A stretch of 64,000 bases of DNA from NCBI GenBank assembly GCA_039619475.1, contig CM077115.1:513814815-513878814 (forward strand), in the 5' to 3' direction. Under the pieces are notes generated by a model, which was not told the DNA's origin, made no database searches, and worked only from the letters and a program-made list of their open reading frames with translations. This document shows, in pieces, positions 5,331-61,198 of this stretch. The position numbers and the translations under genes were made by a program. The stretch comes from Icerya purchasi (taxonomy: Eukaryota > Arthropoda > Insecta > Hemiptera > Monophlebidae). Positions within the stretch are counted from its first letter, which is position 1; every line of letters starts with the position of its first letter.

Positions 5331-5613
5331 GTCAGTGCGCTTTTGTAACGATCGGAGAATAAGGAAAAATTTTTGGAACCGTAGAAAATGAGAAATATAC
5401 TTAGACTAATTTTATAATACTTACGGACGGAAAAATAATCGTAAGTGAGAAAAAATAATAAATATACTTGCACTAATTCTATGATACTTAGGCTTTGAAA
5501 AATTATTATGAACGATAGGGAAACTATCGAGAGCAGAGTGTGCACGGGATCGAATGGTTCGCTTTTGTGGTGGCTAACACTATGGTAGATATAAGCGTGT
5601 GATCTGTCAGTGC

Positions 5614-5948: not shown

Positions 5949-6139
5949 GTCAGTACGTTTTTGTAACGATCGGAGAATAAAGAAAAAATTTTCGGAACCG
6001 TAGAAAATGAGAAATATACTTAGACCAATTTTTATAATGCTTAGGCATGGAAAAAATAAAAAAATAAAAAAATACATTTGAATGTTATAAAGCGGGGAAT
6101 GGGGGGCTCAGGCTAGTTTTATGCTTTAAATATTATACT

Positions 6140-10050: not shown

Positions 10051-10185
10051 CATTTATTTGTTTTTTTATTTATTTTTGTTTTGGTATTTTAAGATCAGAA
10101 AAACCTCTTTTTTTACTTTTATGAGGGGACAGCAAAAAAGTTATGAGTCGATTTTTTTCCAAAACACTTATACGTTCAATTTTTA

Positions 10186-13158: not shown

Positions 13159-13284
13159 AGGCTCAAATTTCCACAGATGTAACGAGCCGGTGGCTGCTGC
13201 CTGGCATTCTGTGGAGTCGTTGACATTGACATTCTGAAGTAGCTTGGTGATAATTGGTAGTGGGTCGTTAGTGAACAGATACTC

Positions 13285-18153: not shown

Positions 18154-18837
18154 GTAGGTTGTTTATTTTGTTTTGTTTGTTTTGTTTTTTTTTTTGTTGT
18201 TGTTAATCACGTTTAGAGATTATTTATTTTTAAGATATTACATTAGAAGAACTTGTAATGCAGCTATGCTTATATAACAAGCGTCTAACAGCGGACACGA
18301 CATTACGATTGATGCGCATGTGCAAGTAGTTCTTATTTACAACACAATGGAAAGAGAGATAAAGAATTGTTCTAGATTGTTGATACTAAGTTGATTGATT
18401 TAACTTTTATGTAAAACAGCATTTTAAGCATAACGTATCCCTTTTCACTGATCCAAATGATATGTTTAAATGCTTAAAAGAAGACAAATGTTTTAAAGCG
18501 TTCTCTATTATTGTATAAATGAATAAAATTTCTTTCATATTTAAGGACTTGTACACATTACGCTTTATAAATGGCTCACTAAGTTTGTTCGCATCTAGTT
18601 TTTAATTTCCCCATTAAACATATCGAAAATTGTTTATAATATTTAGACCACTTCATAATCGATATTAACGCAAATTAAGAAAAGGATATTTTAGATTTCC
18701 TCCAATAGGTAAATAGTATGTACGATTTGAAAATTTAAGATGTGACACATCTTCCGAATTGTATGGTTTCAAGGGGTATTCTGGTTTAGAGGCGTAAATT
18801 TTAGGTCTTTTTCTCGAGATCGATAAAAAAAAAAAAA
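18154..18837. other. S28 intron 1, part without recognised elements
   Basis: AT-rich intron sequence with a T-rich tract just after the donor and no coding signal. The minus-strand frame at 18665-18850 is the run-off of the truncated LINE that follows. Confidence 0.5.
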
Positions 18838-19822
18838 AGAAAAAAAACATATTTTTACTGTTAATTTTTTTTCAAGATATTTATTGATCTTTTGAAACAA
18901 TCGGAGTATCCTCCCAGGGGAGTTCAACATGCTGTGTTCAAGGTCAGAGTTCCAGTTAATTCCTCTTTCCTTAAGGAGGGATAGTACACTGGGAAGGGGA
19001 TCGTTTGGAAAAGACGGTAGTGGGATTTCTGAATTATCGTTGCGGCGTAATTTAGCTTGGTACCAGTAGAATAAATTTCTGAATTCATAAGAATTTCGGA
19101 TAACCGTTAAGGGTGGGATGCCCGCTAGTGAACAGATTTCCAACAATGGCGACGTCCTATGCGCTCCCAAGATAATGCGTATAGCAGTGTGATGGATTGT
19201 GTCAAGTGATTTAAGGAGTGCTTTGTTTGATGAGGAATAAACTTGGCACCCATAGGAGAATTTACTTAAAGTGAGAGATTTGTACACAGTTAGCAGGAGC
19301 TTAGGATCTATGCTATATTTCGGATTTGACAGACATTTTAGTATATTCAAGGATTTCATGCATTTATTTTTAAGATGGTGAATGTGATGTGACCAGGACA
19401 GTTTTTCATCAAACACAAGACCCAAGAATTTAATTGTGTGGAGCAACGGGAGTGGTGAATTCCTTAGGAAAAGAGTTATGTCGGAATCGGGATCACACTG
19501 GCGTCTCTTGTGAAATTTCACACATATGGATTTTGTCGGAGAGAATTCCAGGCCATTGTTATCAGACCATATTTCCAAGTTATTGATTGTTGATTGAAGG
19601 ATTGATCTTGCATTGGACGGACGGTTAGAAGGAAGGGATATATTAAGATCATCAATATATAAGCGGGCTGTAACTGGCGGCCGTGTACAATTTGCCATAT
19701 CATTTATGTATAATATAAACAATGTTACGCTCAGCGCTGAGCCTTGCGGAATACCATTTTCGATAAGGAAGGAGGAAGATATTTTAGAGCCAATCCTTAC
19801 TCGGATCGTTTTAATTTTTTAA
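18838..19822 (-). pseudogene. I-like LINE fragment (I-3): RT palm, thumb and connection
   Basis: The frame 18769-19722 reads an RT from just after motif B, with YIDD as motif C (LYIDDLNISL), then FLGLVFDEKLSW and the LSKFSYGCQVY segment. Upstream bases still encode ENGIPQGSALSV. It is close to I-1 in order and motifs but clearly diverged (SNPKYSIDPKLL against SNPQLNIHPKLI). It is truncated at both ends: the 5' end at about 19822 and the 3' end at about 18838, next to an A/T run. The frame over 300 codons is open, so this copy is younger than most. It lies in S28 intron 1. Confidence 0.88.
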
Positions 19823-29092: not shown

Positions 29093-31006
29093 TCATGTAA
29101 ATAAGTCTTTAACTTTATTATAAAGTTGTTTTATTTTGTTCTGATCGGTGATATTATAAGTATTGTTTATTATTTCGTGCAACATAACTCTAGTTTCGGA
29201 ATCATATTTAATGGTATCGTTATGTAATTTGATTACTTCGTCATTTAATGCGGTTTTTTCCAATGACAATTCATTGTTTGCTGGTGGTATAATCAGAGAA
29301 GTAGAATATGAAGTTACACTTTCATCTAAAATATGAAAAACTGAGTTTATATAATTCATTCCAATACTTTCCCATGGTTGTTTTGTTTCTCTTAGAACAG
29401 CAAACATATGTTTACAGGGCCACCTGTTTTTTTTCCAATCTAAACATTCGCAAGATAGATTTTCCTCATTATTAGCAAAACAGACTTTATATTTTCTGTT
29501 CGGATTGTCTTCGCTTTGAACCATGAATTGTGACTTTTGAATTTCGACAACATTTTTCAGTAATTCACAGTTCGACATTCGTTTTAAACAGTGCGTTATA
29601 AAACTTTGAGGACGATTATTTAAAAATACTGGAATTTCCTTGTTATATCCTTTAACAGAAGAAAGACATGATATATTTTTTTCAACATATTTATGAAATT
29701 TTTCTGTGAAAAATTGGTTATGCAGCACCCCAAGAATACCACTTAATGACTTATCTTTATGGTGACGTAAGTAACAGTTCTTCAATTCACTATTCAGGCT
29801 TTCAACGCCATTATTTGTTTTAATATTAATAATAAAATGTTCTTTTCTAAAATACCATACCCATTTCGTCATGTAGGGCTCCCATTTTTTCGTAAAATAA
29901 TCCTGAAATTTGATTGATGTTTGCCATATATTACTTTTTTTTAACTCGGCCAAAGCTTGTTCAAAATCAATTTTATTTTCTGAATGAGAAATATCTCTTA
30001 ACATCTTTAATAATTCTTCTTTTTTAGAATGAACGGCATGCTCTTTTGTTTTCAACCATCGTAACCAACTTTGTTCTTTATGAATGTCTGTTGCAGGGAA
30101 AGTAGCTTCGATGGCTTTTATTTCTGCCTCAGAAAAATCAGTCATAAAATATTTAGGATTCCATGCAGGATTCCAGTTTCGTAAAACTTGTAGTGGTTCA
30201 GTGATTGCCTGAATAGTTTCATTCATTGTTATGAAGGTCGCTACTGGCTGGTAGTCTACATTTGTCTTCACAACAATAAAAAATAATGGTAGTGCGTATT
30301 TCGACGTTTTGTAAGTAGCATCCATAAGACACGCTTCATTTCCATAACGGTGAAGTAAATTTTTTTGATTTTTTGACTGAAAAATAAAAAGTAATGGAGA
30401 TTTATGATTGTCACTGTTCACAAATGGTTTAAAATATACCGCATCTTCTTTATATTCAATTTTCCATTGCTCTATCATTTGCTGTACATTTTCTTGATCA
30501 ACTTTTGAATAGCGAAGTTTTCTGAGAGTTAGATTAACATGGTTCCATATTGTGTTATTATTTGGATAAAATCGTTTGTTAATTCGGCTTGGAAAATTTC
30601 CATTCTGAAACCAACTATTTTTGTTTGAATTAAGAAATTCATTTAAATATCTCTTTATTTCTATTGTGCTATCTACCCCATTATTAACCAGTTCATAAAT
30701 TCTATTTTTTAAACGTTTGTCTAACCTTTGTACACAATCTTCTGTAATTTTGGAATCATGATTGTGATTTGTTATTTGTGGTAAACAAACATAATACCGT
30801 TTTTCAGTTAAAATCGAATCTGAAGATTCTTTCAACTTATTTCTTATTTGTAGAGATGTTATTTTTTTAATATGCGCCGTGAGTTTATCTGTTTTAAATG
30901 TTGGAAAACGAATGATCTCGCGTAATATTATTTTAGCTGTGCAATCTTGCTTTTTTGTTCTTTGAATGTTTCTTCTTACACCACTTTTATCATAATTGTG
31001 ATCACA
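29093..31006 (-). CDS. MULE transposase, exon 3 (main exon)
   Basis: The open frame runs upstream of its first ATG (30835) to the acceptor TTAAAAATAG at 31007-31008, so the ATG is not the start. It opens CDHNYDKSGVRR, then KKQDCTAKIIL and a THNH-type pair (TNHNHDS), completing an N-terminal WRKY/FAR1-like zinc domain. The MULE catalytic core follows: first Asp in CLMDATYKTSKYALP, second Asp in FMTDFSEAEIKAIEATFP, a retained His in DIHKEQSWLRWLK, and Glu in NNGVESLNSELK. A SWIM zinc finger comes after it (CECLDWKKNRWPCKHMFAVL, C-x-C-x9-C-x-H). With exons 1 and 2 the protein is about 758 residues. All catalytic residues are kept and no stop interrupts it. It cuts at the TIRs and inserts the element. 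Confidence 0.9.
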   Translation of the reverse strand, partial: CDHNYDKSGVRRNIQRTKKQDCTAKIILREIIRFPTFKTDKLTAHIKKITSLQIRNKLKESSDSILTEKRYYVCLPQITNHNHDSKITEDCVQRLDKRLKNRIYELVNNGVDSTIEIKRYLNEFLNSNKNSWFQNGNFPSRINKRFYPNNNTIWNHVNLTLRKLRYSKVDQENVQQMIEQWKIEYKEDAVYFKPFVNSDNHKSPLLFIFQSKNQKNLLHRYGNEACLMDATYKTSKYALPLFFIVVKTNVDYQPVATFITMNETIQAITEPLQVLRNWNPAWNPKYFMTDFSEAEIKAIEATFPATDIHKEQSWLRWLKTKEHAVHSKKEELLKMLRDISHSENKIDFEQALAELKKSNIWQTSIKFQDYFTKKWEPYMTKWVWYFRKEHFIINIKTNNGVESLNSELKNCYLRHHKDKSLSGILGVLHNQFFTEKFHKYVEKNISCLSSVKGYNKEIPVFLNNRPQSFITHCLKRMSNCELLKNVVEIQKSQFMVQSEDNPNRKYKVCFANNEENLSCECLDWKKNRWPCKHMFAVLRETKQPWESIGMNYINSVFHILDESVTSYSTSLIIPPANNELSLEKTALNDEVIKLHNDTIKYDSETRVMLHEIINNTYNITDQNKIKQLYNKVKDLFT

Positions 31007-34539: not shown

Positions 34540-35688
34540 TTATTTATTATTGGTGGAGACTGGAATGCGCACTCCCCTATGTGGGGCTGCGCAGGGCGCA
34601 ATCCTCACGGTGTGACTCTGGAAAATCTGATTCTAAACCATAATCTTTTTCTCCACAACGATCGTTCTCCTACTTTCTTCAAACATCCATTTTCTTCTAG
34701 TGCAATCGACCTCTTGTTTTCATCTCCGTATCTTGGTCTTGTAAGCTCCTGGAGAACTCTCGACGGCACTTTTGGTAGTGATCATGTCTCCATTCTCCTA
34801 ACTCTCAACAACGCTCTTCCTTCTAGACCTTTCAGGCCCTTGCACGCTCCTCACTGGATTCTCTCCAAAACAGATTGGAATAAATTCCGATCTTTGGTGG
34901 ATTCCTCACTCCTCCTTATTCTGGATTTTTCCGACCCGTCATCCCAATACAACTTCTTCATTCAATCTCTATATTCTGCTCTTTCCGCGCTCTCCTCTCC
35001 TTCTTCCTTTTCGCGCGGTCGTTCTTCCTCTTATGCCTCCTCTCTTTGGTGGAATGAAGAGTGTAAAGTTGCCTTCCAAAAAAGCACCGCTACCTTCAAA
35101 GCTTTTCGCTCTTGTTCCTCAATATCCAACTTTTTAGCTCACAATGAAGCTAACGCAAAAGCTCGGTACATTTCAAAATCTGCCAAGAGGAACTCTTGGA
35201 AATCATTTTGTTCATCTTTCTCTAGAGATACGCCTCTCTCTAAGATATGGAAAATGGCCAAAGCGTTCAGATCTCCTCTTTCTGAGCGTCCCCACTTCTC
35301 CCATCATCCTTCTTTCCCTAAACTTCACTCTTTCTTGGACTCTATTGCTCCTCCGTATGTCCCCACTTTCGAGGAATCGAACATTCCTTCACTCCCAAAT
35401 TTCTCAGAACCTCATTTCCTAACGTCTCCTTTCCGCTACGAGGAACTCTTGTCCGTCCTTAACAAAACCTTTCCTTCTGCTCCTGGCCTGGACGGTCTTT
35501 CTTTCCCTATTCTTAAAAAACTCTCTCCTTCCTCGCTGCTCTCCCTTCTGAATATCTTCAACTCTTTCTTACTCTGTGGTTTTACTCCTGAGTCTTGGAA
35601 TGACTTCATCGTCATTCCAATTCCTAAAAAAAAACCAGTGTTCCTTCCGTCCTATCTCCCTAGCCTCATGTCTGCGCAAACTCTTTAA
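34540..35688 (+). pseudogene. LINE A ORF2 part 1: endonuclease and RT fingers
   Basis: The frame starts inside the endonuclease (IIGGDWNAHSPMWGCAGRNP). It has the SSAIDLLFSSP and FGSDHVSILL (catalytic Asp-His) motifs, then the SLWWNEECK linker, KSAKRNSWKSF, and the RT beginning with FPSAPGLDGLSFPILKKLSP. It ends at a frameshift around 35640 (after the VIPIPKKKP motif). The true N-terminus is missing by 5' truncation, and the Met at 34519 lies in flanking sequence. Confidence 0.88.
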
Positions 35689-37879
35689 AGGTTTAATAAA
35701 TAACCGCCTCGTTTGGTGGCTTGAGCATAATAAATTAGTTCCTTCTAATATGTTCGGTTTTCGTCCCGGGCTTGGCCCGGTAGATTGCATCAGTACCTTC
35801 CTTGCAGATATCTATAAATCATTCCTATCAAAGAAATTTACTGTCGCTTCTTTTGTCGATGTCTGCTCTGCATTCGATAATGTGCATCTTCCTTCTCTGG
35901 GCTCCAAACTCCTCTCTCTTAATCTCCCTCCGGTTCTTATCACTCTTATACTCAACCTCTTTCAACATAGAACTCTTTATCTATCTTCTCCTTCTCTTTC
36001 CACCTCCAGATGCGTCTATCGTGGGTTTCCCCAGGGTTCCTGCCTTAGCCCCACTCTTTTTAATATTTACTCCTTCGATATTGCTTCGCTCACTGTTCCC
36101 TCTTTCTCTCTCCTTTTTGCTGATGACATTTTAGTTTATTCCACCTCAGATGATCTGTCCTCCGCCACCAACGAGTTAAATCATTCATTGTCCCATCTTA
36201 GCAATGCTCTATCTACTCTCCACCTCTCTCTTTCCCCTTCCAAGTCTTCCTGTATAATTTTTGCTCTCCGCCTCTTTAATCGTGCTTTTATAAACATCAG
36301 CGTATCTGGTACACCTATTCCCACTGTTAATTCCATATGTTATCTAGGTCTTTTCTTAAATAGTCGCCTTACATTTCATGATCATATTAATTATATCTAT
36401 AATTCCTCGATCAAAAGACTTAATCTCCTCAAATCTTTATCTCCGCTCAGATGGGGTGGAGACCCGTGCATTCTATTAATTCTATATAAATCGATTATTC
36501 GGTCCAAACTCGACTATTGTTTCTTCATTTATGGCAATGCCTCCAAGTCTCTTCTTTCGAAACTTGACGCAATTCAGAATTCCTGCCTTCGCCTATGTAT
36601 TGGCGCTTTAAGATCTTCTCCTATTTCTGCGATTCTATCCGAAACTTGCACTCAACCTCTTTTCACTCGTTGTTCACTCCTCGATTATCGATTTTTAATA
36701 AAAAGCCTCCCCATTTTGTCATCCAATATTATTCCTTCCTATCTTCATATCAAAAATCACTGGCGCTTGGCGTCTCATAGAATTCCGATTTTATCGCATA
36801 TAGCTGCTCGTGTTTCCAATTTTTCTCCCTACGTTTCCTCTTATAACAGTCTTCCTTACTTTTCTCTCGATTTTAATAGCATATGGTACCCCATCAATTT
36901 CTTCTCTCTTCCAGTCCGAGCTAATTCTTCCTCTCACAATGTAGTCAACTTCGAATTCCTTCAGCTGCTGAACTCTGCTTTTCCTTCCCATGCCTTAATT
37001 TTCTCGGATGGCTCCAAGAGTGATGGGGGCGTGGGTGGCGCGTATACGTCTTCTACGTTCCTGCACTCTGAGTCTTTCAGACTTCCTTCTTTCTGCTCTA
37101 TCTTCTCAGCCGAGTCGATCTCAATTCTTTGTGCAATCCAATTCATATCCTCTACGAGTGGGATTCACAAATTCCTGATTGTTTCTGATTCCAAAGGCGT
37201 TCTTCAAACCATCTCTTCTCCTCCTTCTCATACTTCTGACGGTATCATCCTCTCTATTCGATCCCTTGTATCCTCTTTGTTCTCGTTCCGATCCATTCTC
37301 ATAGACTTTCTATGGAACCCTAGTCATTCCAATATTGAGGGCAATGACGCAGCTGACTCTTTAGCTCGCTCAGCCGCCCGCATTGGTCCTTTCCTCGACT
37401 CTTCCCCTTCCTCAGACATTCTTTCTCTGTCACACTCTAATCATTCTAGACTTTGGACTGACATGTATCCATCTTTATTCTCAAATCGCTTTTCACAGTA
37501 CCGTCTTATTCAACCGGTTCCTAGTTTCCTGCCTTGGTTTCAATCTATTCCTACCTGTCGTCGTTCCACTGTTGTTTCCTTAATGAGGCTTAGAATCAAT
37601 CATTCTCTACTCCCCTCTTCTCGCTTTCGATTCGCTTTGTCCCCTTCTCCTTTCTGCTCTCTTCACGCTTCTGAGCCTTCTTGTATTTGTGACTCAAATC
37701 ACATCCTACTCGAATGTTCTACACTCTCTAACGAACGCTCCTTTCTTTACGCCCAACTTCTAATTTTGGGTCTTCCTACTCCCTTTAACGCTACCTATAT
37801 TCTTTCCTTCCCATTGCCTTCAGTTATTCCATTGCTGCTGTCCTTTGTCTTTTCCATTTCTGACCGCTTGGCTATTTAG
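35576..37879 (+). pseudogene. LINE A ORF2 part 2: RT, RNase H and zinc region
   Basis: Continues the RT in the next frame with FRPISLASCLRKLF, FGFRPGLGPVDCI, motif A FVDVCSAFDNV, motif B GFPQGSCLSPTLF, motif C LLFADDILVYS and the thumb RWGGDP. RNase H follows with Asp in FSDGSKSDGG, Glu in SAESISILCA, Asp in LIVSDSKGVL and the GNDAADSLA end. The C-terminus has SLMRLRINHSLLPSSRF and a Cys/His region CSLHASEPSCICDSNH-ILLEC. The frame is open over 700 codons; one shift separates it from part 1. It is the best preserved LINE protein in the window, though truncated at the front. Confidence 0.9.
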
Positions 37880-40204: not shown

Positions 40205-42520
40205 AACCATAAAGATTGCCAAGTGTCCTCGACTTTATAATAACAAAGGAATTGGATCACTTGTATGTGGACTGCAAAATGGAGCCGCAGCTAAATTCGG
40301 ACCATGCTCCAGTCATCGCGTGTTTTGGTGTGAAACAAATGCTCGCTCATCAGCATTCAAGACTTACAAGCTCTAGAATGAACTGGTTAACTTTTGTTGA
40401 CGAAGTAAATAAATCTATAGATTTAAACGTGCGCCTAACTGTCCAGGCTATTGCACTAAATATTCAGAACTCTTGTAGTGTAGCTACTCCAACTCAAATA
40501 GGGGCATCCTCAAATTATGTATATAATGTACCCCTGAAGATAAGATTATTAGTACAGAAAACTAGGAATGCTCGTGTTAGATGGCAACGCAATAGAACAC
40601 CATTTTATAAGGGGGAATATAATAAGCTGCATAGGGAATTAAGGGCCGAAATAGATGCGTATAAAAGCGATAGATACATTGAATTCTTTTCTTCGCTTAA
40701 TCCGGAAGACAGATCGTTATGGAAAACGACAAAATCGTACCTTAGACAATTAAAAAAGTCGCACCCGATTAAAAAGTCAAATGGTGAGTGGGCTAAGTCG
40801 AATGAGGAAAAGGCCACGGTGTTTGGCGAACATCTATATAATACATTCCAACCGCATCGAAACATAGGCAATGGTAATAATGATAAAGTAGTTAGTGACG
40901 GCCTATGCGTACCCATGCAGTTAACGCTTCCGACCAAACGAATTCTGCCAAGTGAGGTACAGGCTATTATTAAAAGAAAAGCCCCAGGAGAGGATATGAT
41001 TACTGGTGAAATATTGAAAAAGTTGCCGCATAAGGGAATTCTTATGCTTACCTATATCTTCAACGCCATCCTAAGATTGGGCTACTATCCTATATGTTGG
41101 AAGGATTCGATTGTCCTTTTAATCTCGAAACCAAATAAAAATTCTATAGGTCGATTAGTTTATTGAATACCTCATCTAAAATATTCGAAATGATTTTGCG
41201 TGAGCGGATATTAAATTCTATAGCAGGAGCGAATATTATTCCAAGTCACCAGTTTGGGTTTCGCACTAACCATTCTACTATTCATCAGGTCCATAGAATA
41301 GCTGATAGAATAGCAGCAACCTTAGAAAGAGGATGGTATTGCTGTGCGGCGTTTCTCGATATTGAGCAGGCCTTCGATCGGGTGTGGCATCAGGGTCTGC
41401 TGTTCAAACTTAAATTAGTGATACCAAATGATATCTTCCAGGTAATGGCAGCATACCTATCGGACAGAACTTTTCGAGTAAGGATTGGCTCAATTGTATC
41501 GGACAAATTTGCTATTAGAGCCTGTCCCGCAAGGCAGTATTTTATACTGTATCTGATCTACACATCAGATATTCCAGCTTTAACAACGACAGTAGCCGCA
41601 ACATTTGCTGATGACACGTGTATATTGGGAGCGCATGAGGATCCGACTTGCGCTTCGGTTCTAGTCCAAGAACACCTGAATAAAATTCAGGACTGGGCGA
41701 GTAAATGGAAAATTAAAATTAATCATTTAAAAAGTCAGTAGGCTACCTTCACGCTGAATAGAGGGAACTGCCCTCTCTTATATTTAAATGGGCAAGCGCT
41801 CGTTAATTGCAACACCGTTAAATACCTAGGATTGGTACTGGATCGTCGACTTACTTAGGGAGCTCAAGTTGCAAACTGCAGACAAAAAGTTATTGCCAGA
41901 ATCAAGGCGCTAGGGTGTATTTTCAATAGAAAATCTAGGGTCACCCTAAGGTGTAAAAGACTAGTTTACATGGCGGTTGTAGCCCCATGTTGGAGATATG
42001 GGCTTCAAGTATATAGAACTTCAGCAGTGAGCAATATCAGAAGACTACAGCAACTGCAGTCACGAATATTAAGGCAGATGGTTAACGCTCCGTATTACGT
42101 GTCAAATAAAACCCTCCATGAGGATCTAAACGTTCCGTATGTCAAAGATGTGCACAAAGAACTATATATCAAGTTATACAATAAGTTGGCAGTTAACGAT
42201 AACCCGAATATTGCCAGCATGAGGCGGATGAGCCTTCCGGGTTGTACACACTTGAGACTGAGAAGGACATGGTGTAGAGACGTTTTGGCAAACGGATGAC
42301 TAGGGAAAGTTTACAACAGCAGATACGTCGTCATATAGCATTCCGCATAATCGATTAGCGTTACGTATTAATCTATATAAATTTTTCTTATGCGTTCATT
42401 TATATAAGACAGCATTGGTTAATAGTTATTGTAAGTCTCGCTGCAGCTATCGTATTGCTGAAAGTGTAAGTGTATCTACAGTTTATTAAATACACAGGTT
42501 TAAAAAATATATACGAAATA
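40205..42520 (+). pseudogene. Jockey-type LINE, 5'-truncated, in S28 intron 3
   Basis: Begins inside the endonuclease (PSVLDFIITKEL, then LNSDHAPVIACF with the Asp-His pair). The linker has QKTRNARVRWQRNRTPFYK. RT: AIIKRKAPGEDMITGEILK, LLISKPNKN (then a break), HQFGFRTNHSTIHQ, motif A AFLDIEQAFDRVWH, a damaged motif B (CPARQYFILYLIYT), and motif C TFADDTCIL. After a stop at 41741 comes VKYLGLVLDRRLT, and the end at 41970-42299 has VVAPCWRYGLQVYRTS and RILRQMVNAPYYV. The Jockey clade is typical in order and motifs. 3' UTR runs to about 42520. It starts only some 45 bp after the exon C donor, so this intron is nearly all LINE. Confidence 0.88.
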
Positions 42521-44430: not shown

Positions 44431-44963
44431 ATTTTTTTTTTTTTTTTTTTTGTTACTATTTCTATTGCTTTTTACACCATGCTATCAATCAAATTTTAAC
44501 CTTGTTTTTCCATCTCTCCAGATATTTTTCATTTCGAATTTCCTTTGGTATGTTCCCCATTAATTTTATTAATACCTCTTCCTCTACATTGTCTATTTTA
44601 CTGTTAATCCCCCTAGATCGTACATAGCAAGGTTTATCGCAATTTCTAGTCCTGTAAGTTCTTGTTCTAGTTGGTAACTGCCTATCTTCGAGTTTAGCAC
44701 ACTCAGTAATTTGCTGTAATAATATAAAGCATTTTTGGCGACATTTCATTATTTTTGTTCCACCAAGTCGTGTTAGCTAATGCGTTTTTCTCTCGTTGTA
44801 TAAGACCAGTTTTAAACATTTTTTTTGAAACTTGTTGATTTTCCTCATTTCGGTAAAATTACGATTCCGTATTTAATTCTGGACATTATTACAGCTTCGA
44901 AATATAACCTTAAGCTTTTGTATGTCATACCTTGTTTTAATTTATATAGTGCTGGAATAGTTT
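44431..44963 (-). pseudogene. LINE D, 3' part (after the Penelope insertion)
   Basis: The T-run at 44431-44452 is the A tail. The frame 44489-44749 is the C-terminus (CAKLEDRQLPTRTRTYRTRN, then EVLIKLMGNIPKEIRNEKYL). At 44830-44963 the thumb reads LYKLKQGMTYKSLRLYFEAV and IKYGIVILP. This joins in frame to GKVRQTIP at 49404 once the Penelope element and one 12-bp target copy are removed. Jockey-like. Confidence 0.8.
44952..44963. repeat. Target duplication, left copy, of the Penelope insertion
   Basis: CTGGAATAGTTT here equals 49392-49403. A 12-bp duplication fits Penelope-like elements. Confidence 0.9.
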
Positions 44964-45021
44964 ATAATAAAATAAACTTTAATAACAAACAATATAGATC
45001 AATAAATTAGATAAATACCTA

Positions 45022-45060
45022 TTTAGAAACGTTTTCGGGCATAACCCATCATCAGCTAAC
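45022..45060 (-). ncRNA. Hammerhead-ribozyme-like motif in left Penelope arm
   Basis: Reverse complement of 49259-49295 with the same sequence: CTGATGA core, short hairpin, GAAA, then the putative cleavage site and closing stem. Described at the right-arm copy. Confidence 0.6.
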
Positions 45061-45222
45061 ACTAACTTAAAGGAAACTTAAAACATACTGAAGTGAATAT
45101 AGGGAATACATGTGTATATATAGTAGATGTAAAGAGGAATAAACATGGCAGGAATAAAAATCTATAGGTTGAAAATGCTAATAATTAATATAAAATATAA
45201 AATAAAACAAGAAGACAAAAAG

Positions 45223-45702
45223 TTAAATTTTTATATTAAACAGTGGATTATTATTATTAGGTGTTTGGTCATTTAAAATATTATTTTTATATTTATTTAT
45301 ATAATAATTTTCTGCAATGTTCATATTATTACCTTTGTGATAAGTGGCCAGGATGGTTACAGTATTTTCTATTGAATTAGGTTTATGTTTATTTTTAATT
45401 AGATGTTCTGCATAGGTTGATTTTTCTATTTCATTATTATTAAATGCTTTTATATGTTCTTTATATCTGCAATTGATTTTTCGCCCTGTTTGACCAATGT
45501 ATGATTTCTCACAATCAGTACAATTTATTTTATATATACCGCTATTTTCGTAAATATTATTATTTTTTAAATTTAAGGTGTTTATTTTATATTTTAAATT
45601 ATTTTTAGTTTTGAATGCTACATTTAAACCTTGTTTTTTGAATAAATTGGTTAATTTGTATATGTTATTGTTTATAAATGTGAATTTTATTGTTAGTAGC
45701 AT
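45223..45702 (-). pseudogene. Inverted-arm copy of the GIY-YIG endonuclease ORF
   Basis: The 159-codon frame is identical in protein to the + copy at 48616-49095, including GIYKINCTDCEKSYIGQTGR. It is part of the truncated inverted partner and has no complete RT upstream. Classed as a partial copy rather than a gene. Confidence 0.9.
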
Positions 45703-46492
45703 TATTGACTCCTAATTTTTGTATATATTTTGATTTTGATTTTATTTTGTGAATTAGTTTATCTATTATTTGTTCGTCATAACCATTATTTCTTGCTAAA
45801 GTCTTTAATATATTAATTTCTATTTGTTTTTTATTTATATTCATGGGTGTAGTTAATAATCTATTTATTGCAGTCATGAAGTAAGCATATTTATGTTGGT
45901 TTGGGTGATTTGATGTTTTATGAATTATATTATCAGTGGTGGTTTGTTTTCTATAAATATTATATGTTAACTTATCATTTGATTTTATTATTGTTATATC
46001 TAAGAAATTTATTTTGTTATTTTCTTCTTTTTCCATAGTATAATGAATATTTTTGTGATTTTTATTTAAATCATTTAGAATGTCATTTTCAGTATTACTA
46101 CTATTTTCATCAAAAATTAGTAGTGTATCATCTACATATCTAATATAAGATTTAATATTGTATTTTTGTATTATATTTTCCCTGTATATTTCTTCTAAAT
46201 TTTGTAGAAAGATTTCACTTAAAATACCTGACAAAGGTGAGCCCATAGCTAATCCATTATTTTGTATATACATGGAGTTATTAAAATTAAAGTAATTTTG
46301 CTCTGTAACAGTTTTAATTATTTGGATTAATTGATTACAAAAAATATTATTCTTTAACTTATTTACAGATTTTTTAATTATATCTATGGTTTCATTTATA
46401 GGTATATTTGGATAAAGGTTTGTTATATCATAAGAAATTAATTTAGTTTTGTTATTAATTTTTATATTTTTTAATTTATCAAAAACATCCAA
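45665..46492 (-). pseudogene. Inverted-arm partial copy of the Penelope RT
   Basis: The 275-codon frame starts at an internal Met and covers RT motifs A-C and the thumb. It matches the + copy except for Arg/Met in LEEIYRENII. The N-terminal half is missing because the arm is truncated at 46641. Confidence 0.9.
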
Positions 46493-46646
46493 TCTGTTTC
46501 TAATAGTATATTTATTATTAATTGATATATTAGTTTTTAATATTTTAGTTATTAATTTTGAGATTTTATAAGAAGGTGCACTAGTATAATTTATTAGTGG
46601 TCTTATAGGAGCATTATTTTTATGTATTTTTATTAAAGGGTATTTG

Positions 46647-46722
46647 TTGATCTATATTGTTTGTTATTAAAGTTTATTTTATTATACCATTTTAACAAAC
46701 AGGATGTATTCACCTACATTTA
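46647..46722 (+). repeat. Partial pseudo-LTR at the start of the plus Penelope unit
   Basis: Direct copy of 49316-49391 (ends with GTATTCACCTACATTTA in both). It begins about 25 bp downstream of the putative ribozyme cleavage position and so does not itself contain the hammerhead. Confidence 0.85.
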
Positions 46723-48653
46723 ATTATGCCGATATGGCAATATATATTCAAAAGTTTTATTATTTAAAGTTAAAATTATATAAAACTATCAATAACATAT
46801 ATTTTAATAAAGTTTGTATAAGTAATAATATAATACCTAAATATGCAGTAGTTAAAATAAAAAATAAATCTGATATAGCAATGAAAACTAAATCACAAGC
46901 TGAAAAATTTTGGATTAAAAATGAAATTAACTTCCTTTATAACAAAAAGAATAAAATTAACCTTCAAATGTTAAAATTACATATATATATAGCTAATAAC
47001 TTAAAATTTGAAATATTAAAATTATATTTAGATGAAATAGATCTAAAAATTAAAGCATTTATTAATAAAAAACGCCTAATTTTAGATAAGAAATTAAATA
47101 ACTTAATAAAACAACAAAAACCAAAACTTGCAGATAATAACAAATTTAATTTTCATCTCAGAATTATAAACTTAACCAACATACAATTAACAAATGATGA
47201 AATTAATACTGTAAATTTGGGCTATAAATATAATTTAAACATATATAACAAAAAACAATATGAAAATTTAGTTATAGAAACTGAATCTGCTATCCAAAAA
47301 TTACCAATTGAAGATCAAACAATTATTAGAGCTGAGGCAACTCATGCCATCAGAAATATCTTAAAGAAAAATGAAACAAATATAGAACATTTAAAAATAC
47401 AAAACACAATTAAAAATATCAATAGTAAATTAAAACAAAACAATGCAGTCATTGTAAAAGCAGATAAGGGAAACAGTTTAGTAATCATCAATAAAAATGA
47501 AATCATCCAAAAAACTGAAAATTTTTTAAAAGAAAATAATATACAATTAATAAAAACAGACCCCACTAATAAATATCAAATAAAAATAAGGAAAATAATA
47601 AAAGAATCTGATATAATAATAAATAATAATGAAGCTAAATATTTAATAAATATGAACCCAAAAGCATCAACTCTTGACCCTTTAATAAAAATACATAAAA
47701 ATAATGCTCCTATAAGACCACTAATAAATTATACTAGTGCACCTTCTTATAAAATCTCAAAATTAATAACTAAAATATTAAAAACTAATATATCAATTAA
47801 TAATAAATATACTATTAGAAACAGATTGGATGTTTTTGATAAATTAAAAAATATAAAAATTAATAACAAAACTAAATTAATTTCTTATGATATAACAAAC
47901 CTTTATCCAAATATACCTATAAATGAAACCATAGATATAATTAAAAAATCTGTAAATAAGTTAAAGAATAATATTTTTTGTAATCAATTAATCCAAATAA
48001 TTAAAACTGTTACAGAGCAAAATTACTTTAATTTTAATAACTCCATGTATATACAAAATAATGGATTAGCTATGGGCTCACCTTTGTCAGGTATTTTAAG
48101 TGAAATCTTTCTACAAAATTTAGAAGAAATATACATGGAAAATATAATACAAAAATACAATATTAAATCTTATATTAGATATGTAGATGATACACTACTA
48201 ATTTTTGATGAAAATAGTAGTAATACTGAAAATGACATTCTAAATGATTTAAATAAAAATCACAAAAATATTCATTATACTATGGAAAAAGAAGAAAATA
48301 ACAAAATAAATTTCTTAGATATAACAATAATAAAATCAAATGATAAGTTAACATATAATATTTATAGAAAACAAACCACCACTGATAATATAATTCATAA
48401 AACATCAAATCACCCAAACCAACATAAATATGCTTACTTCATGACTGCAATAAATAGATTATTAACTACACCCATGAATATAAATAAAAAACAAATAGAA
48501 ATTAATATATTAAAGACTTTAGCAAGAAATAATGGTTATGACGAACAAATAATAGATAAACTAATTCACAAAATAAAATCAAAATCAAAATATATACAAA
48601 AATTAGGAGTCAATAATGCTACTAACAATAAAATTCACATTTATAAACAATAA
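46704..48653 (+). CDS. Penelope-type reverse transcriptase ORF
   Basis: 649 codons without interruption. The N-terminal ~190 residues are Lys/Asn/Ile-rich and include an N-terminal helical region. Penelope RT landmarks follow: NAVIVKADKGNSLVI, then LDPLIKIHKNNAPIRPLINY, motif A SYDITNLYPNIP, motif B NNGLAMGSPLSG, motif C SYIRYVDDTLLIF, and INFLDITI. The catalytic Asp of motif A and the YVDD pair are intact. The start Met (46704) lies within the pseudo-LTR sequence, so the true start may be downstream or the ORF may begin as predicted. The C-terminus ends 38 bp inside the GIY-YIG ORF in a different frame. It is telomerase-related and primes on target DNA in active relatives. Confidence 0.92.
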   Translation: MYSPTFNYADMAIYIQKFYYLKLKLYKTINNIYFNKVCISNNIIPKYAVVKIKNKSDIAMKTKSQAEKFWIKNEINFLYNKKNKINLQMLKLHIYIANNLKFEILKLYLDEIDLKIKAFINKKRLILDKKLNNLIKQQKPKLADNNKFNFHLRIINLTNIQLTNDEINTVNLGYKYNLNIYNKKQYENLVIETESAIQKLPIEDQTIIRAEATHAIRNILKKNETNIEHLKIQNTIKNINSKLKQNNAVIVKADKGNSLVIINKNEIIQKTENFLKENNIQLIKTDPTNKYQIKIRKIIKESDIIINNNEAKYLINMNPKASTLDPLIKIHKNNAPIRPLINYTSAPSYKISKLITKILKTNISINNKYTIRNRLDVFDKLKNIKINNKTKLISYDITNLYPNIPINETIDIIKKSVNKLKNNIFCNQLIQIIKTVTEQNYFNFNNSMYIQNNGLAMGSPLSGILSEIFLQNLEEIYMENIIQKYNIKSYIRYVDDTLLIFDENSSNTENDILNDLNKNHKNIHYTMEKEENNKINFLDITIIKSNDKLTYNIYRKQTTTDNIIHKTSNHPNQHKYAYFMTAINRLLTTPMNINKKQIEINILKTLARNNGYDEQIIDKLIHKIKSKSKYIQKLGVNNATNNKIHIYKQ

Positions 48654-49095
48654 CATATACAAATTAACCAATTTATTCAAAAAACAAGGTTTAAATGTAG
48701 CATTCAAAACTAAAAATAATTTAAAATATAAAATAAACACCTTAAATTTAAAAAATAATAATATTTACGAAAATAGCGGTATATATAAAATAAATTGTAC
48801 TGATTGTGAGAAATCATACATTGGTCAAACAGGGCGAAAAATCAATTGCAGATATAAAGAACATATAAAAGCATTTAATAATAATGAAATAGAAAAATCA
48901 ACCTATGCAGAACATCTAATTAAAAATAAACATAAACCAAATTCAATAGAAAATACTGTAACCATCCTGGCCACTTATCACAAAGGTAATAATATGAACA
49001 TTGCAGAAAATTATTATATAAATAAATATAAAAATAATATTTTAAATGACCAAACACCTAATAATAATAATCCACTGTTTAATATAAAAATTTAA
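48616..49095 (+). CDS. Penelope GIY-YIG endonuclease ORF
   Basis: 159 codons, overlapping the RT ORF by 38 bp in the +1 frame. It begins with the linker YKLTNLFKKQGLNVAFKTKN, then the zinc-like CTDCEKS and the GIY-YIG core (SGIYKINCTDCEKSYIGQTG), Arg in CRYKEHI, ending with a Glu-containing IAENYYINKYKN (catalytic Glu of the family). In most Penelope elements this domain is fused to the RT in one ORF, so the overlap marks a frameshift; both arms carry it. The enzyme would nick target DNA. Confidence 0.92.
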   Translation: MLLTIKFTFINNNIYKLTNLFKKQGLNVAFKTKNNLKYKINTLNLKNNNIYENSGIYKINCTDCEKSYIGQTGRKINCRYKEHIKAFNNNEIEKSTYAEHLIKNKHKPNSIENTVTILATYHKGNNMNIAENYYINKYKNNILNDQTPNNNNPLFNIKI

Positions 49096-49258
49096 CTTTT
49101 TGTCTTCTTGTTTTATTTTATATTTTATATTAATTATTAGCATTTTCAACCTATTGATTTTTATACCTGCTATGTTTATTCCTCTTTACATCTACTATAT
49201 ATACACATGTATTCCCTATATTCACTTCAGTATGTTTTAAGTTTCCTTTAAGTTAGTG

Positions 49259-49295
49259 TTAGCTGATGATGGGTTATGCCCGAAAACGTTTCTAA
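49259..49295 (+). ncRNA. Hammerhead-ribozyme-like motif in the Penelope pseudo-LTR
   Basis: CTGATGA (49263-49269), then a small hairpin (GGGT, loop TAT, GCCC), then GAAA (49282-49285). A minimal stem III (AACGTT) and a TT/C cleavage position (49291/49292) follow. TTAG (49259-49262) pairs with CTAA (49292-49295) as stem I. Hammerheads with very short stem III are known in Penelope pseudo-LTRs. One extra T between CTGATGA and stem II departs from the strict consensus. The older copy at 56688-56733 keeps the core with compensating changes. Confidence 0.65.
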
Positions 49296-49354
49296 ATAGG
49301 TATTTATCTAATTTATTGATCTATATTGTTTGTTATTAAAGTTTATTTTATTAT

Positions 49355-49391
49355 ACCATTTTAACAAACAGGATGTATTCACCTACATTTA
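49355..49391 (+). repeat. One-sided 37-bp Penelope tail
   Basis: This terminal piece has no counterpart at the left end of the insertion (44964), but is present internally at 46686-46722. Confidence 0.8.
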
Positions 49392-49403
49392 CTGGAATAG
49401 TTT
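49392..49403. repeat. Target duplication, right copy, of the Penelope insertion
   Basis: CTGGAATAGTTT, identical to 44952-44963. Confidence 0.9.
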
Positions 49404-51145
49404 GTCTAACTTTCCCTGTAATATTGTCAATATGGTTTCTCCATGTTAAACTTTTATCTAATGTTATTCCAAGATATTTAAATTCATTCACATTTTCTAA
49501 CTTATTACAACCACATATTTCCTTTCTATGTAAACACTTTATATTGTGTAAAATTAATTTGGGGACGAACCTTCTAAACCGGCTTGGTGTTCTTATATGC
49601 ATCACTTTTGTTTTTTTAGCATTAATTAATAGTTTTTTGTCATGCGCCCATTTGTATACATTATTGAGATCTTCTTGTAACATTTTTTCAGCACTTTCAA
49701 TGTCAGAGTGTTCAATAACTAGTGCGATATCATCTGCATAAACATACACTTTGGAGTTCTTTGCATATCGGTAGAGCGAATTCATATATATCAAAAATAG
49801 TATAGGTGCCAATATTGTCCCTTGTCCAACTCCGTAATTCATTATTTCTTTTCTACTGTGTTCATTCCCGATCTTTACTAAAAATTCTCTTCCTCTTATG
49901 TAATTCCAAAACCATTTTAGATACCTCCCTTTTACACCCATTTTTCTAATGTCCTCAATTAGTATTTCTTGGTCCACTAGATCAAAAGCCTTAGTAAGGT
50001 TTAAAAGAACTAACAGAAATTGTTTACCCACTGCTAATCCTTTATTTATCTCTGATATTAGTGTTCTAAGTAGTAATATCGTCGATTTTCCCTCTCTAAA
50101 ACCGAATTGATTACTATTTATCAACTTTATTTTCTTCCAAGTAATTTTTCAAATATTTTCCCACATACTGCTCAATTATTTTTGCTATGACTGAAATTAA
50201 TGTGATCGGTCTGTAGTTTTCACACTATTTTCTATCTTCACTTTTGTAAATTGGCCGTACCATACCGATTTTTAACTCTCTGGGAAATATTCCTTCCTTC
50301 AAGGAGTAATTAATCATTTTCGTTAGTATTGGGGTTAGTAGTTTTGTGTGTCTCCTGATATCCTTCACTCTTATTCCGTCGTATCCTTGGGCTTTATCCG
50401 GATTAAGTTTTTTTATTATGGATTCTATTATGACCTCTGTAGCTCTTGGAATGTATAAGGATATACTAGTTTCATCATCTATTTCAGTATTCAAGAATTT
50501 ATTATCACAGAAGTGTTTCATTTTCCCCGTTATGGATAAGTAATAATTTAAGAATGCGTTAACTGCATTGTCATAACTAGCAAAATTCCTGAGTATATCC
50601 TCGTCTATTATTGCTTTTTTCTTTTTGCATACTATTTTATTTATTATTCTCCAAGTTTTCTTCATGTCGTTGCCTGCTTTTTGTAATTCCTGTATGTAAT
50701 ATTTTTCTTTTGCTTGTCTTATTTCCTAATTAAAATAGATTTCTGTATCTCTTATATAATTCTTTATATCGTCTATTTGAGTTGTTTCCTTTACGTATTT
50801 TATAATATAAATCTCTTATATGAATGTAATTTAATATTTTCCTGTTCATCCATTCATTCCTAGGGCAATTTTTCATTTTCACAGTTGTTTGTTTTATATA
50901 CCTACATTCCTCGTAGCAATTTTTAATTCCGGTTGTAAAGTTCTCCTGTGAGTAATTTTTTACTATTCGAAAAATCTGTCTGGGACTCCACCTTTCCATA
51001 AATTAATGAATACTGAAATGTCTCCGACGGTTAATAATTTTTTCCCTGGGGATTCCGCATCCCATTCTTCCAAAAATGACTTAATCCTATTTCAGTATCT
51101 ACTCTTAGTAAGTTCCAAATCCTAAATTTGGATAATAAAATATCG
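49404..51145 (-). pseudogene. LINE D, 5' part: linker and RT
   Basis: From 50999 downward: linker (MERWSPRQIFRIVKNYSQEN to CPRNEWMNRKILNY). RT fingers at 50225-50665 have LNPDKAQGYDGIRVKDI and FPRELKIGMVRPIYKSED. The palm at 49404-50124 has NSNQFGFREGKSTILL, motif A as LLNLTKAFDLV (Asn for Asp), motif B GVGQGTILAPILF and motif C VYADDIALV. The motif A change and a frameshift near 50150 mean it is inactive. At 49404 the Penelope element interrupts it. Jockey-like. The endonuclease end is cut by the hAT insertion at 51154. Confidence 0.85.
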
Positions 51146-56639: not shown

Positions 56640-57545
56640 CATATTATACAAATATAACAAACAAATTTAAGACTAAAATGAAGGCTTACTTAGAAACATT
56701 TTCGGGTATAACCTATCATCAGCTAAGAACACTACTCACTATGTGTGATCAGAAACAAATTCTAAATCACACTGAAGTCAAATAGGAAATAAAAAGGTTT
56801 CAACTTAAAGTCGATGTATCATAATTGTTAGAATAAGATGACCTACAATAAATATCTAAGGATTATATTAAACATTTAAATAATATAAATATAAAATATA
56901 AATATTAAAAGATATTTTAAATTTTATATTATTATTTGGTATCTGGTCGTTTAATATATTTTAATTTTGTGTTTATTTATATAATAATTTTCAGCTATGT
57001 TCATGATGTTACCTTTGTTATATGTAGCTAAGACAGTGACTGTTTTTTCTAATGAATTTGGTGTATTTTTATTTCTTATTAAATGTTCAGCATAAGTGGA
57101 TTATTCTATTTCATTATTTTTAAATGATTTAATATGTTCCTGGTATCTATATTTAATTTTTTTACCTGTTCGACTGATGTATGATTTCTTACAATCATTA
57201 CAGTTTATTTTATATATACCACTATGAAGTATGCATGTTTATGTTGATTAGGATGGTTTGATGTTTTGTTTATTATAATGTCAGTGGTTGTTTGTTTCCT
57301 ACATATGTTGCACTTTAATTTATCATTTGTTTTGATTATTGTGATATTTAAGAAGTTTATTTTACTGTTTTCTTCTTTTTCCATAGTATGTTGTATGTTT
57401 TTATGTATTTTATAATTATATTTTATATTTTAATAGTTTTCTTTAATTTTAATTTTAGATAATAGAATTTATGAGAGTACATCGCTATATCAGGAAAATG
57501 TAATAAAGAATCTTTCAACATCCTGTTTGTTAATTAATAAAATAT
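56640..57545 (-). mobile_element. Old Penelope-like relic with internal deletion
   Basis: The minus strand reads an RT piece at 57225-57400 (TMEKEEN, then INFLNITIIKTNDKLKCNI and a HKHAYFM end). It is then cut directly to the GIY-YIG region (57215-56935: SGIYKINCNDCKKSYIS, STYAEHLIRNKNTPNSLEKT, NIAENYYINKHK). The parts between are deleted. The ends resemble the younger element at 44964, including CAAACAGGATG at its 5' side (about 57512-57524 on the + strand as the reverse complement). Stops and substitutions show age. Confidence 0.8.
56688..56733 (-). ncRNA. Hammerhead-like motif in the old Penelope relic
   Basis: Minus strand: CTGATGA, hairpin AGGT-TAT-ACCC, GAAA, and stem I CTTAG/CTAAG. 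Compared with 49259-49295, stem I has changed on both strands (GTTAG/CTAAA to CTTAG/CTAAG, gaining a pair) and the inner pair of stem II changed from T-G to T-A. Confidence 0.55.
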
Positions 57546-58172: not shown

Positions 58173-59393
58173 GTATAATGTTTTTCTCGAATTAGGTTTA
58201 ATTTTATTACTGAATAACTTGAAAAACTTTTTTAACTTAGATAATTTGCAATTTAGATGAACACTACTATGAACATTTGTGAGTGGGATAAAATAAAAAT
58301 TTTCTTAGCCCTCAAAGTATTTTCAATCTTTTTTAAATTTCAGCTGCACTGTCCCGCTGTATTCATTTTTTTGCTATTTCTTGACAACGTGCTTAAAGAA
58401 AATTTTGACGGGGGTTTTGTAGACTTTGTATATCCGTTGAGAATTTTTCACCATACAGCTCATTTTTTTGAGAGGGGGGAAATGATAAAAACCATACAGT
58501 GCAAGGTGATGGTGTACGTTGGATGCAAAATGACTCTGATTCCTGCGGCTTTGCTGATTTGCAGTCTTTACAAAATTATTTACGCTAATAAAAAGTTCAC
58601 TTCTTGCTAAATAGTCTGCTCGACATTCTCCTCATTCATCTTTTTAATGGCTTTCATAGGAGATCACCTGTGACGAATACTCTTGTAATGTTGTTCTTTT
58701 AGCAGCAAGTCTGTTTTCAAATATGAAACAGCAGAAAGCGGCCATATGACGACACACTTCAATAAAACTGGCACTGTTCGGATGGGTTGATTTTCATAAT
58801 TATAGAATTAAATAGACTACAACCCTACTTCGGTTTATGCTCATAGTGCATTGTTTGAAAGCTAATGACAGTGGTCTTTGGCAAGCTGCTGTCGGTACAA
58901 TGAAAAAAAAAAAAAAACAAAAAAAAAACGATCAATTGATGTAAAATTTTGAAGCCATTTCCAGCAATGTCATTGAACTTTCGGTCAACTATGATCCGGG
59001 AAAACGAAATGTAAGAAGTATTTTAAGAACAAGGTTGGCTATTTATACACTATCTCATTTGAAAATGGAGATAAGATATCGTAAATAAGCTAGCTGTAGG
59101 CGGCATTAGAGGATGCATTCCTTGTTTGGTTAAACATCTTCTGTTTAATGTTATGTACAAGCAAGAGTAAAAAATGTCTTATCACGTGAATATTTGGTTG
59201 ATAATAGGGTACCACAATGCAGCGATCTAAGCGTTGTATACTTTCTAGTATCAGTAAATGATATAACAACATACATTTTTGCGCCTATACGTTACAGAAC
59301 ATTTGCAATTGATATTTTAATATTCTCAAATTTAGTCTCGCATAAATAACTTATTAAAGTGAAATTAATCTGCTGAAATAAAATTTTCTGCGT
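58173..59393. other. S28 intron 5, first part; no firm gene
   Basis: The longest + frame (58257-58610, 117 codons) is Ile/Phe/Leu-rich without a domain. The opposite strand reads TKSTKPPSKFSLSTLSRNSK and may be a decayed transposon, but I cannot name it. An A-run lies at 58903-58928. Confidence 0.45.
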
Positions 59394-59702
59394 GAAAAAT
59401 AACACGCGCAGGGATTTTAGCAGGAAAATAATCTACTACAATTATTAATCTATACAAGGAAAATACTAAACTAAATTTTTCACTATTCATCTAAAACAAT
59501 GGAAATTAAAATATGCGTCAGCACTAAACATAGATTAGACTTTTTGTTATAAATAACTTTTAATATGTTTAGTGCTGACGCATATTTTAATTTCCATTGT
59601 TTTAGATGAATAGTGAAAAATTTAGTTTAGTATTTTCCTTGTATAGATTAATAATTGTAGTAGATTATTTTCCTGCTAAAATCCCTGCGCGTGTTATTTT
59701 TC
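59394..59702. repeat. Perfect long hairpin: 139-bp arms, 31-bp loop
   Basis: 59394-59532 and 59564-59702 are exact reverse complements base for base, with spacer 59533-59563. There is no protein. In the pre-mRNA of the S28 gene this would fold into a 139-bp double strand. Confidence 0.95.
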
Positions 59703-61198
59703 ATATCATAACATTGGACCATATCATATATACCAGCATCTCAACATCAGATACTGTTGCTGATCTAACACATAACTCGGTTTTTTGTATGTAATCCTGA
59801 TAATATTCCTAATCAGCCTATGCAAAAATTTATACAGCATATCGGGTGAAACACAACTTTGTGACTGATGGAAAATGTGAACGTGTAAACTTACAAAGTG
59901 TTAACCAATTTATTCAAAAATACATCTTGTTCAACTTACACCTTATACGAGAAGTAATATTATAAATCGTTTTTTAACGATTTTAAATTCCTGTATCCAT
60001 ACATTTTCATTTCGAATACATTAAGCAAAAAACACATACTACCAGTACGTAATCTCAAAACTGGTAAATATTTGAAAACCTGAAAAAGATTTTAACAAAT
60101 TTCAAAAATTGCAACATTTATTATGCGGATGGGACCGCAGCAGATTTTTTTTATACATAACTACTAATTGCTATAGTTTCTTTTGCTCATCTCCGCTGAA
60201 TTAATAACATTATCTGTTATCCGGAAGAAATAATTGAAAACAATACGCTGAAAAACTCATCATCTTCCGGAATTCTCAACCTGTAGGTTCGATTTTTGAA
60301 AATCCCGTAGTAGTGTGTACATCTAAAACTCTGAAAAATATCTATGCGGGAGAGTATTGTTTATCTTGATCCCAGCACCGTTGGATACTCCAGAGCATAA
60401 AGAGATTTATAGATTGAAAAAAACTTCCTCATCGAACTGCCCTTATGTTATTGGTGAAGATGCTAAAAATATAGAATAAAAGCATCGTCTTCCAAAAAGT
60501 AAACATAGAAAGAACTAATCCCGAAATAAGATCAGCAGTAACAGCAGAACAAAGGATGTTTCTATGAATAGATCGTTGATTGACTCTGCACGTTCTACCC
60601 AGGAAGATTTACTGTAAAAAGCGGCCTTACTTATATGCGGTTTACGTGACAATTGACAATACAAAATCGACCTAAAAGATGTAAAGCAGCGCTCCACATT
60701 TCTCCACAACAAAGACATAATCCGATTTTTCAAGTCACCCGGGCTGTTTTTGAAAATACACTAAAATGAATTTAATACAGGAGATGGCTTTGCAGGCAAT
60801 GAAGATTTAAAATATGTATATATGTATATTACATTTTTCATTTATTATTTTGAGAAAATTTTTAAACGTTCTACTGATTTTTCCTGATAATTCGTAAGTC
60901 TTTAGTGTTGAAATTCCTTATCTTTTATAGCTTTCTTAATTTTCAGAAATTAAAATTTAAAGTATAAAAATTAAGCAGAGAAATCGGAAAATTTTGTTCG
61001 AATATCACCTGATTCGCAGATATAATTAAACAATAGTTTACTCCGTATTAATTTGACGAAAAATGAATTATCGTTTGAAATAATACTTCGTCGCTGAAAA
61101 TGTAAATATGATGTTTTCATGGCGTTTTTCGATATTTATTTAATGTGGACAATAATAATTTGTTGTTACGAAATATTTATCGCAAACAATATTTGTAG
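59703..61198. other. S28 intron 5, second part; nothing recognised
   Basis: AT-rich, no frame of note. A 72-codon minus frame at 60515-60733 has no domain. Acceptor of exon F at 61190-61198 (TATTTGTAG). Confidence 0.5.

Follow-up and report, generated by a model that had tools for sequence, protein, structure and literature searches.

Head-to-head insertions of a Penelope-like element in the genome of Icerya purchasi, wherever both outer ends could be read, carry a short tail at exactly one of them, and we consider it very likely that two-ended target-primed reverse transcription, using a single start site for each target strand, gives rise to such insertions. The insertion from which the analysis starts lies in a 64,000-nt stretch of the genome (the window, C1:513814815-513878814). 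It is 4428 bp long (44964-49391), is flanked by an exact 12-bp direct repeat, CTGGAATAGTTT, which is its target-site duplication (TSD; 44952-44963 and 49392-49403), and consists of a plus arm of one unit joined head to head to a truncated, reversed (minus) arm (Table 1). The reversed arm (44964-46641) is the reverse complement of 47677-49354 over the full 1678 bp, with five substitutions and no insertions or deletions. The initial annotation had recognized the arms, the exact TSD and the Penelope identity of the element, all of which our results confirm; it had seen one substitution between the arms, and this number must be corrected to five (left positions 45147, 45153, 45163, 45379 and 46182; 5/1678, 0.30%), three of them inside 17 bp (P = 0.003 versus random placement). 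Chance does not produce an inverted repeat of 1678 bp at 99.7% identity whose two edges both coincide exactly with a 12-bp repeat. The right end extends 36-37 nt beyond the left end, and this extension, the tail, contains a copy of the presumed start codon. The bases ATTTG at 46642, previously read as a 5-bp filler at the join, are the first five bases of an 81-bp terminal direct repeat (pseudo-long terminal repeat, pLTR), whose other copy begins with ATTTA; they continue the unit in four of five bases, so they are probably not filler, although this is suggestive and not proof. The target of the insertion is a non-LTR retrotransposon, whose reverse transcriptase (RT) frame runs for 287 codons across the site once the flanks are joined. 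An assembly artefact appears unlikely as the origin of the palindrome, because the arms differ at five sites, the ends differ by the tail, and 17 other loci share the plan at different junctions.

Table 1. Features of the Penelope-like insertion and its target (positions in the window)
Feature	Position	Strand	Remarks
TSD, left copy	44952..44963		12 bp, CTGGAATAGTTT
Reversed (minus) arm	44964..46641	-	1678 nt; begins at no-tail site, truncated within RT region
Endonuclease frame, reversed arm	45223..45711	-	translation identical to plus-arm copy
Truncated RT frame, reversed arm	45665..46651	-	
Head-to-head junction of both arms	46641..46642		spanned by no other scored genome match
Plus arm	46642..49391	+	one unit, 81-bp terminal direct repeat at each end; ends at tail site
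5' pLTR	46642..46722	+	81 bp; presumed start codon at 46704 inside
RT frame	46671..48653	+	first ATG 46704; YVDD motif
GIY-YIG endonuclease frame	48607..49095	+	shifted relative to RT frame
11-bp deletion, approximate place	48632..48633	+	private to window locus (reference position 1992); mirrored near 45686 in reversed arm
Hammerhead-ribozyme-like core, candidate	49259..49295	+	CTGATGA ... GAAA; by eye
3' pLTR	49311..49391	+	81 bp; 80/81 versus 5' copy
RT frame of target non-LTR retrotransposon	49351..50148	-	RVT_1 match
Tail	49355..49391	+	36-37 nt, right end only; first base ambiguous
TSD, right copy	49392..49403		12 bp, CTGGAATAGTTT

We searched the genome (1,103,370,081 bp in 41 contigs) for further copies of this element, which we call family A. 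A first search with an internal query, in which the best 40 of 1057 candidates were scored, gave 41 places at 99-100% identity in 20 loci, and the 19 loci other than the window were all retrieved. A second search with a query including the tail (best 40 of 1671 candidates scored) gave 43 places and 21 new loci. Both samples favor young copies. Head-to-head structures, with the minus arm on the left and the plus arm on the right, are found at 18 of the 20 mapped loci, and each arm is a run of the 2680-bp unit that starts from a 3' end and is truncated at a variable inner point; the minus arm at C2:139.35 Mb also bears an internal deletion. Arm lengths range from 169 to 13,414 nt (about five units at most), and 16 of the 18 head-to-head loci have an arm longer than 2760 nt, which is partly selection, as only loci with most of a unit in one arm or both could match the query. 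Some of the large structures are nearly symmetric, such as those at C1:3.25 and C2:279.82 Mb with three full units and a part on each side. Among the mapped loci, the 1678-bp arm of the window is ordinary. Of the two remaining loci, the one at C1:326.08 Mb is one-sided and no TSD was found there, while the one at C2:341.97 Mb is one-sided by alignment and shows a 12-bp repeat, with CACCTACA repeated at the tail end. At the latter, 8 extra TA-rich nucleotides separate the 12-bp repeat from the truncated end; they could be a very short reversed arm of the no-tail kind and were left uncounted. A different arrangement of the same element, seen from search coordinates only, is an array of at least 17 head-to-tail units in one orientation over about 45 kb at C1:593504073-593547690.

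The outer ends of the arms occupy two sites about 36 nt apart, a tail site and a no-tail site. All 18 mapped head-to-head loci have the tail at one outer end and lack it at the other. Three further family-A loci from the second search, which are those with places on both strands among its 21 new loci and the only ones of the 21 read at both ends, also have exactly one tail; loci without any tail would be under-sampled among these three because the query contained the tail, a bias from which the first 18 are free. The same pattern is seen in family B, an older, internally deleted relative that has many copies in the genome, is also present in the window at 56640-57540 on the minus strand and matches the unit in pieces at 72-84%. 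The best 40 of 3576 first-look candidates for family B were scored, which gave 16 loci with matches on both strands (counted by eye); four of them, at C2:355.49, C2:171.11, C2:94.34 and C1:186.96 Mb, have at least one end short of the unit 3' end and were left unscored, and the other 12 all have exactly one tail. At 4 of these 12 the search table showed a tail at neither end, and the sequence itself revealed one. For family-B ends retrieved in pairs, the alignment score separates tail (27-36) from no-tail ends (7-12), with a maximum of 12 for shuffled sequence. Among head-to-head loci with two readable ends, 33 of 33 (21 in family A, 12 in family B) thus have exactly one tail, and an orienting script, whose tail expressions were written after the ends had been inspected, places it on the left in 21, on the right in 12, and ambiguously in none. 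If each end chose its start site independently, mixed ends would be expected in at most half of the loci; with loci treated as independent, the probability of 33 out of 33 would be 1e-10 (0.5^33), and the exact 95% lower bound of the mixed-end fraction is 0.89.

Locus-private variants are also shared by the two arms of an insertion in many cases. Compared with one real unit instead of a consensus, the loci show 107 locus-private variants, 53 of which lie where both arms are covered, and 22 of these 53 are present in every segment of both arms. Four private substitutions are common to both window arms, as is the 11-bp deletion, which the other 19 of 19 mapped loci lack. Sixteen loci have 300 bp or more of arm sequence that can be compared; the partner arm is the closest relative, alone or tied, in 14 of them and strictly the closest in 7. 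The window junction (46592-46691) is matched as a whole by the window only (best 40 of 209 candidates scored), the junctions of the 18 mapped head-to-head loci are all different, and a single TSD brackets each structure. The initial proposal that the reversed partner is made in one integration event is therefore well supported by the junctions, the shared private variants and the bracketing TSD. The insertion had been called a clean example of such an event; it is one of many, and not the cleanest.

The script finds a TSD of 12-16 bp at all 21 family-A head-to-head loci, a length to which some bases common to the target and the element ends may contribute, and a TSD of at least 10 bp at 8 of the 12 family-B loci, the other four, old copies, being unresolved or imperfect. 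Just 3' of the cut, both strands show a preference for pyrimidines, with 26/29 and 25/29 at position +3, a column chosen post hoc. Extra TA-rich bases are found at 7 of the 21 family-A no-tail ends (C1:53 and 314 Mb; C2:18, 47, 279, 346 and 365 Mb). Microhomology at the central junction is weak, with 0-5 nt and a mean of 1.3 versus a null mean of 0.94 at the 11 junctions that can be read exactly; the other 7 of 18 have locus variants close by.

Two-ended target-primed reverse transcription would produce these structures as follows. The endonuclease would cut both target strands 12 bp apart and leave 3' overhangs, as the duplication suggests, and each 3' end would prime its own cDNA on element RNA from one source. 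The two start points would differ, the tail site serving one cDNA and the no-tail site, some 36 nt more internal, the other, with an asymmetric pair of RT molecules using each start site once. Each cDNA would extend for a variable distance (2750 and 1678 nt in the window), and the free cDNA ends would finally be joined head to head and the second strands filled in. A stricter form of this reading, on which we are evenly divided, is that Penelope insertion is obligately asymmetric: one two-protomer ribonucleoprotein on one RNA boundary would prime both ends, one at the tail site and the other at the no-tail site, so that the inverted partner would be the normal product and single-sided copies would be failures.

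Several observations weigh against two-ended target priming. As many as 31 of the 53 private variants are missing from some segments. In 2 of the 16 comparable loci, both nearly identical and young, the partner arm is one event more distant than other loci. Shared private variants could also be a product of gene conversion between the two arms of a palindrome. At C1:360.92 Mb, one variant is present in all four covered plus laps and absent from the minus arm, and the arms of this locus may derive from different templates. The inner breakpoints at C1:40.13 and C2:490.74 Mb (2 of 18) are only 12 and 7 nt apart with nearly equal arms, which would suit a fold-back of a single cDNA. The 12-bp overhang is deduced from the duplication and is not itself observed, the loci come from one genome and two related families with mostly young copies, and excerpts of a study of an anole Penelope report no strand difference in start site in vitro (PMC11167929).

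Among the alternatives, the copying of both cDNAs from one circular RNA is unlikely. In this model, a hammerhead-cleaved and ligated monomer circle serves as the template, laps are rolling-circle turns, and each circle offers one tail site and one no-tail site; it would jointly explain the multi-unit arms in a 2680-bp register, the shared variants and the one-of-each rule. The hammerhead-like site is passed by 36 of 36 arms, with every inner end more than 9 nt away from the predicted cut. The candidate core at 49259-49295, recognized by eye from hammerhead motifs, is mostly preserved in a diverged relative. A search of Rfam gave no hammerhead match, and the candidate region folds no better than shuffled sequence. 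At C1:3.25 Mb, one variant occurs in lap 2 of both arms while laps 1 and 3 lack it. A linear RNA of several units, or gene conversion, would account for this better than one circle. The plus laps at C1:360.92 Mb, which all differ from the minus arm, likewise speak against a single circular template. Long tandem arrays exist in this genome and could be transcribed as multimers, and in excerpts of the anole study hammerhead mutants left insertion in vitro unaffected (PMC11167929).

Fold-back self-priming, in which the 3' end of a single cDNA snaps back and copies itself into a reversed arm, seems very unlikely. Self-priming on an antisense template was proposed for an Adineta vaga Penelope with reference to palindromes at the junction, according to excerpts of that report (PMC3846280). 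The inner breakpoints lie within 110 nt of each other in 6 of 18 loci (permutation mean 2.8, P = 0.03), a weak signal for which the permutation P ranges from 0.03 to 0.18 with the threshold, and for equality of arm lengths P is 0.15 to 0.47. On the other hand, 12 of 18 loci have inner breakpoints at least 171 nt apart on the circular unit map, and the two arms at a locus can be as much as 7.6 kb apart in length. A fold-back copy should end where its template ends, and the actual ends always differ by the tail. No hairpin (arms of at least 6, loop of at most 60) spans the window junction; because hairpins are also absent at 55 of 200 random centers, the constant tail difference is the stronger argument.

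The remaining two explanations are highly improbable. A palindrome already present at a source locus and copied whole as one RNA would fit the commonness of head-to-head loci (18/20 mapped), but no other scored candidate spans the window junction (best 40 of 209), all 18 of 18 junctions differ, and the left end is at a 3' start site instead of a random 5' truncation. A secondary rearrangement (two separate insertions, an inversion, or recombination among copies) or an artefact of the long-read assembly is just as hard to credit: the element is highly repetitive and recombination is possible in principle, but a single TSD brackets each of the 21 family-A structures, the arms carry arm-specific substitutions, and the target frame reads through the site once the flanks are joined.

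The coding frames identify the window element as a Penelope-like element with a Penelope-type RT, as judged from its sequence. The long frame has 409 homologues at E <= 1e-5 among 7993 candidates scored, the best-scoring at 43% identity, and its two matches among solved structures are both telomerase RT (E = 4.6e-4). The short frame matches the GIY-YIG family of Pfam at E = 0.025, below the Pfam cut-off, and the GIY...YIG motifs are visible in an alignment with seven homologues. Further hallmarks of such elements seen here are pLTRs from a partial tandem organization (81-bp direct repeats, 2680-bp tandem period), an optional inverted partner plus a 30-40-nt tail, and a TSD. The RT and endonuclease frames are out of register at the same place in both arms, where the 11-bp deletion lies; open reading frames had earlier been cited as a sign of a very recent event, an argument that this frameshift in both arms does not support. 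Of the 120 homologues listed, 86 are 780 aa or longer, and 86 of these 86 combine matches to both frames in a single protein. A single frame of at least 780 codons is present in 39 of 45 full-length units at the 20 loci, with domains inferred from length; intact copies therefore exist, although the window copy is not among them. Because both arms share the deletion, the window RNA probably carried it already and was moved in trans by protein made from intact copies.

The window locus is young, yet not among the youngest. The five arm differences polarize into two derived on the left and three derived on the right, with all other covering segments (49-69 per site) carrying the other base, as expected of changes after insertion. 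With an insect mutation rate of 2.8-3.5e-9 per site and generation, and if all five differences are later mutations, the age of the insertion comes to about 0.4-0.5 million generations (95% range 0.14-1.24). Of the 15 other comparable loci, 14 are less divergent than the window locus with its 3.0 differences per kb.

In Penelope of Drosophila virilis, the founding member of the group, the terminal repeats are direct or inverted, and an extension of 34 bp is present. In the excerpts describing the Penelopes of Adineta vaga, Pen2a_Av and others have an RT and GIY-YIG open reading frame, pLTRs, an adjacent inverted pLTR and TSDs of 8-10 bp; a 31-bp tail is optionally found at one inverted pLTR, 5'-truncated tandem partners and a non-LTR element as target are described, and long tandem or inverted structures are mentioned for Pen3 and Pen4 (PMC3846280). 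The window family resembles these elements in its RT and GIY-YIG domains, pLTRs, inverted partner, TSD, tail and non-LTR target. However, the inverted part of Pen2a has only the size of a pLTR (181 bp), and those excerpts describe its tail as optional, whereas here the arms measure from 169 nt up to 13.4 kb and every readable head-to-head locus has exactly one tail. The Poseidon/PAc protein of Anolis carolinensis cuts and extends both target strands, and the available excerpts describe two adjacent internal start sites separated by the tail, a hammerhead motif and AT-rich targets (PMC11167929). The window family shares the two start sites one tail apart and the AT-rich targets. Its candidate hammerhead-like motif precedes the start codon by about 100 nt, whereas that of Poseidon/PAc lies over the start codon. 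In vitro, Poseidon/PAc showed no difference in start site between the strands, and the excerpts contain no survey of how tails are used at the two ends of genomic insertions; the genomic ends of the window family show one of each. Inverted partners and an optional tail are thus already in print, and the strictness of the one-of-each rule is the new point; no strict statement of one tail per insertion was found in searches of an open-access library, including excerpts of PMC8969392, PMC12910113 and PMC7229834, and one may exist in subscription papers.

Other features were also noted in the window. A foldback at 59393-59703 has 140-bp arms, reported as 100% complementary, and a 31-bp spacer, and an inverted repeat at 9635-10055 has arms of 153 bp (97%) separated by a 115-bp spacer. 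The region 4417-6055 contains direct repeats, each about 80-640 bp long, with 84-94% identity. A 637-codon open frame at 29096-31006 (minus strand) with ALS2CR8, ZSWIM1-3 RNaseH-like, MULE and SWIM matches resembles a transposase gene, and retrotransposon frames with RVT_1 and/or RNase H matches (below cut-off) are found at 12448-13284 and 18772-19818 on the minus strand and at 35552-37876 and 41139-41738 on the plus strand. Scans of the window for tRNA, Rfam and NCBIfam matches gave nothing useful, and a scan against viral contigs gave no relative.

For the inverted partner of Penelope elements, an origin by self-priming was proposed in the excerpts cited above (PMC3846280). Head-to-head insertions that are nearly identical and flanked by target duplications are numerous in the Icerya purchasi genome, so the rival models give different predictions that can be checked here. 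If true, a strict rule of one start site per strand would separate Penelope from the target priming of LINE and R2 elements, and it would be relevant to the question of how reverse transcriptases of the telomerase type can copy sequence onto the two ends of a break.

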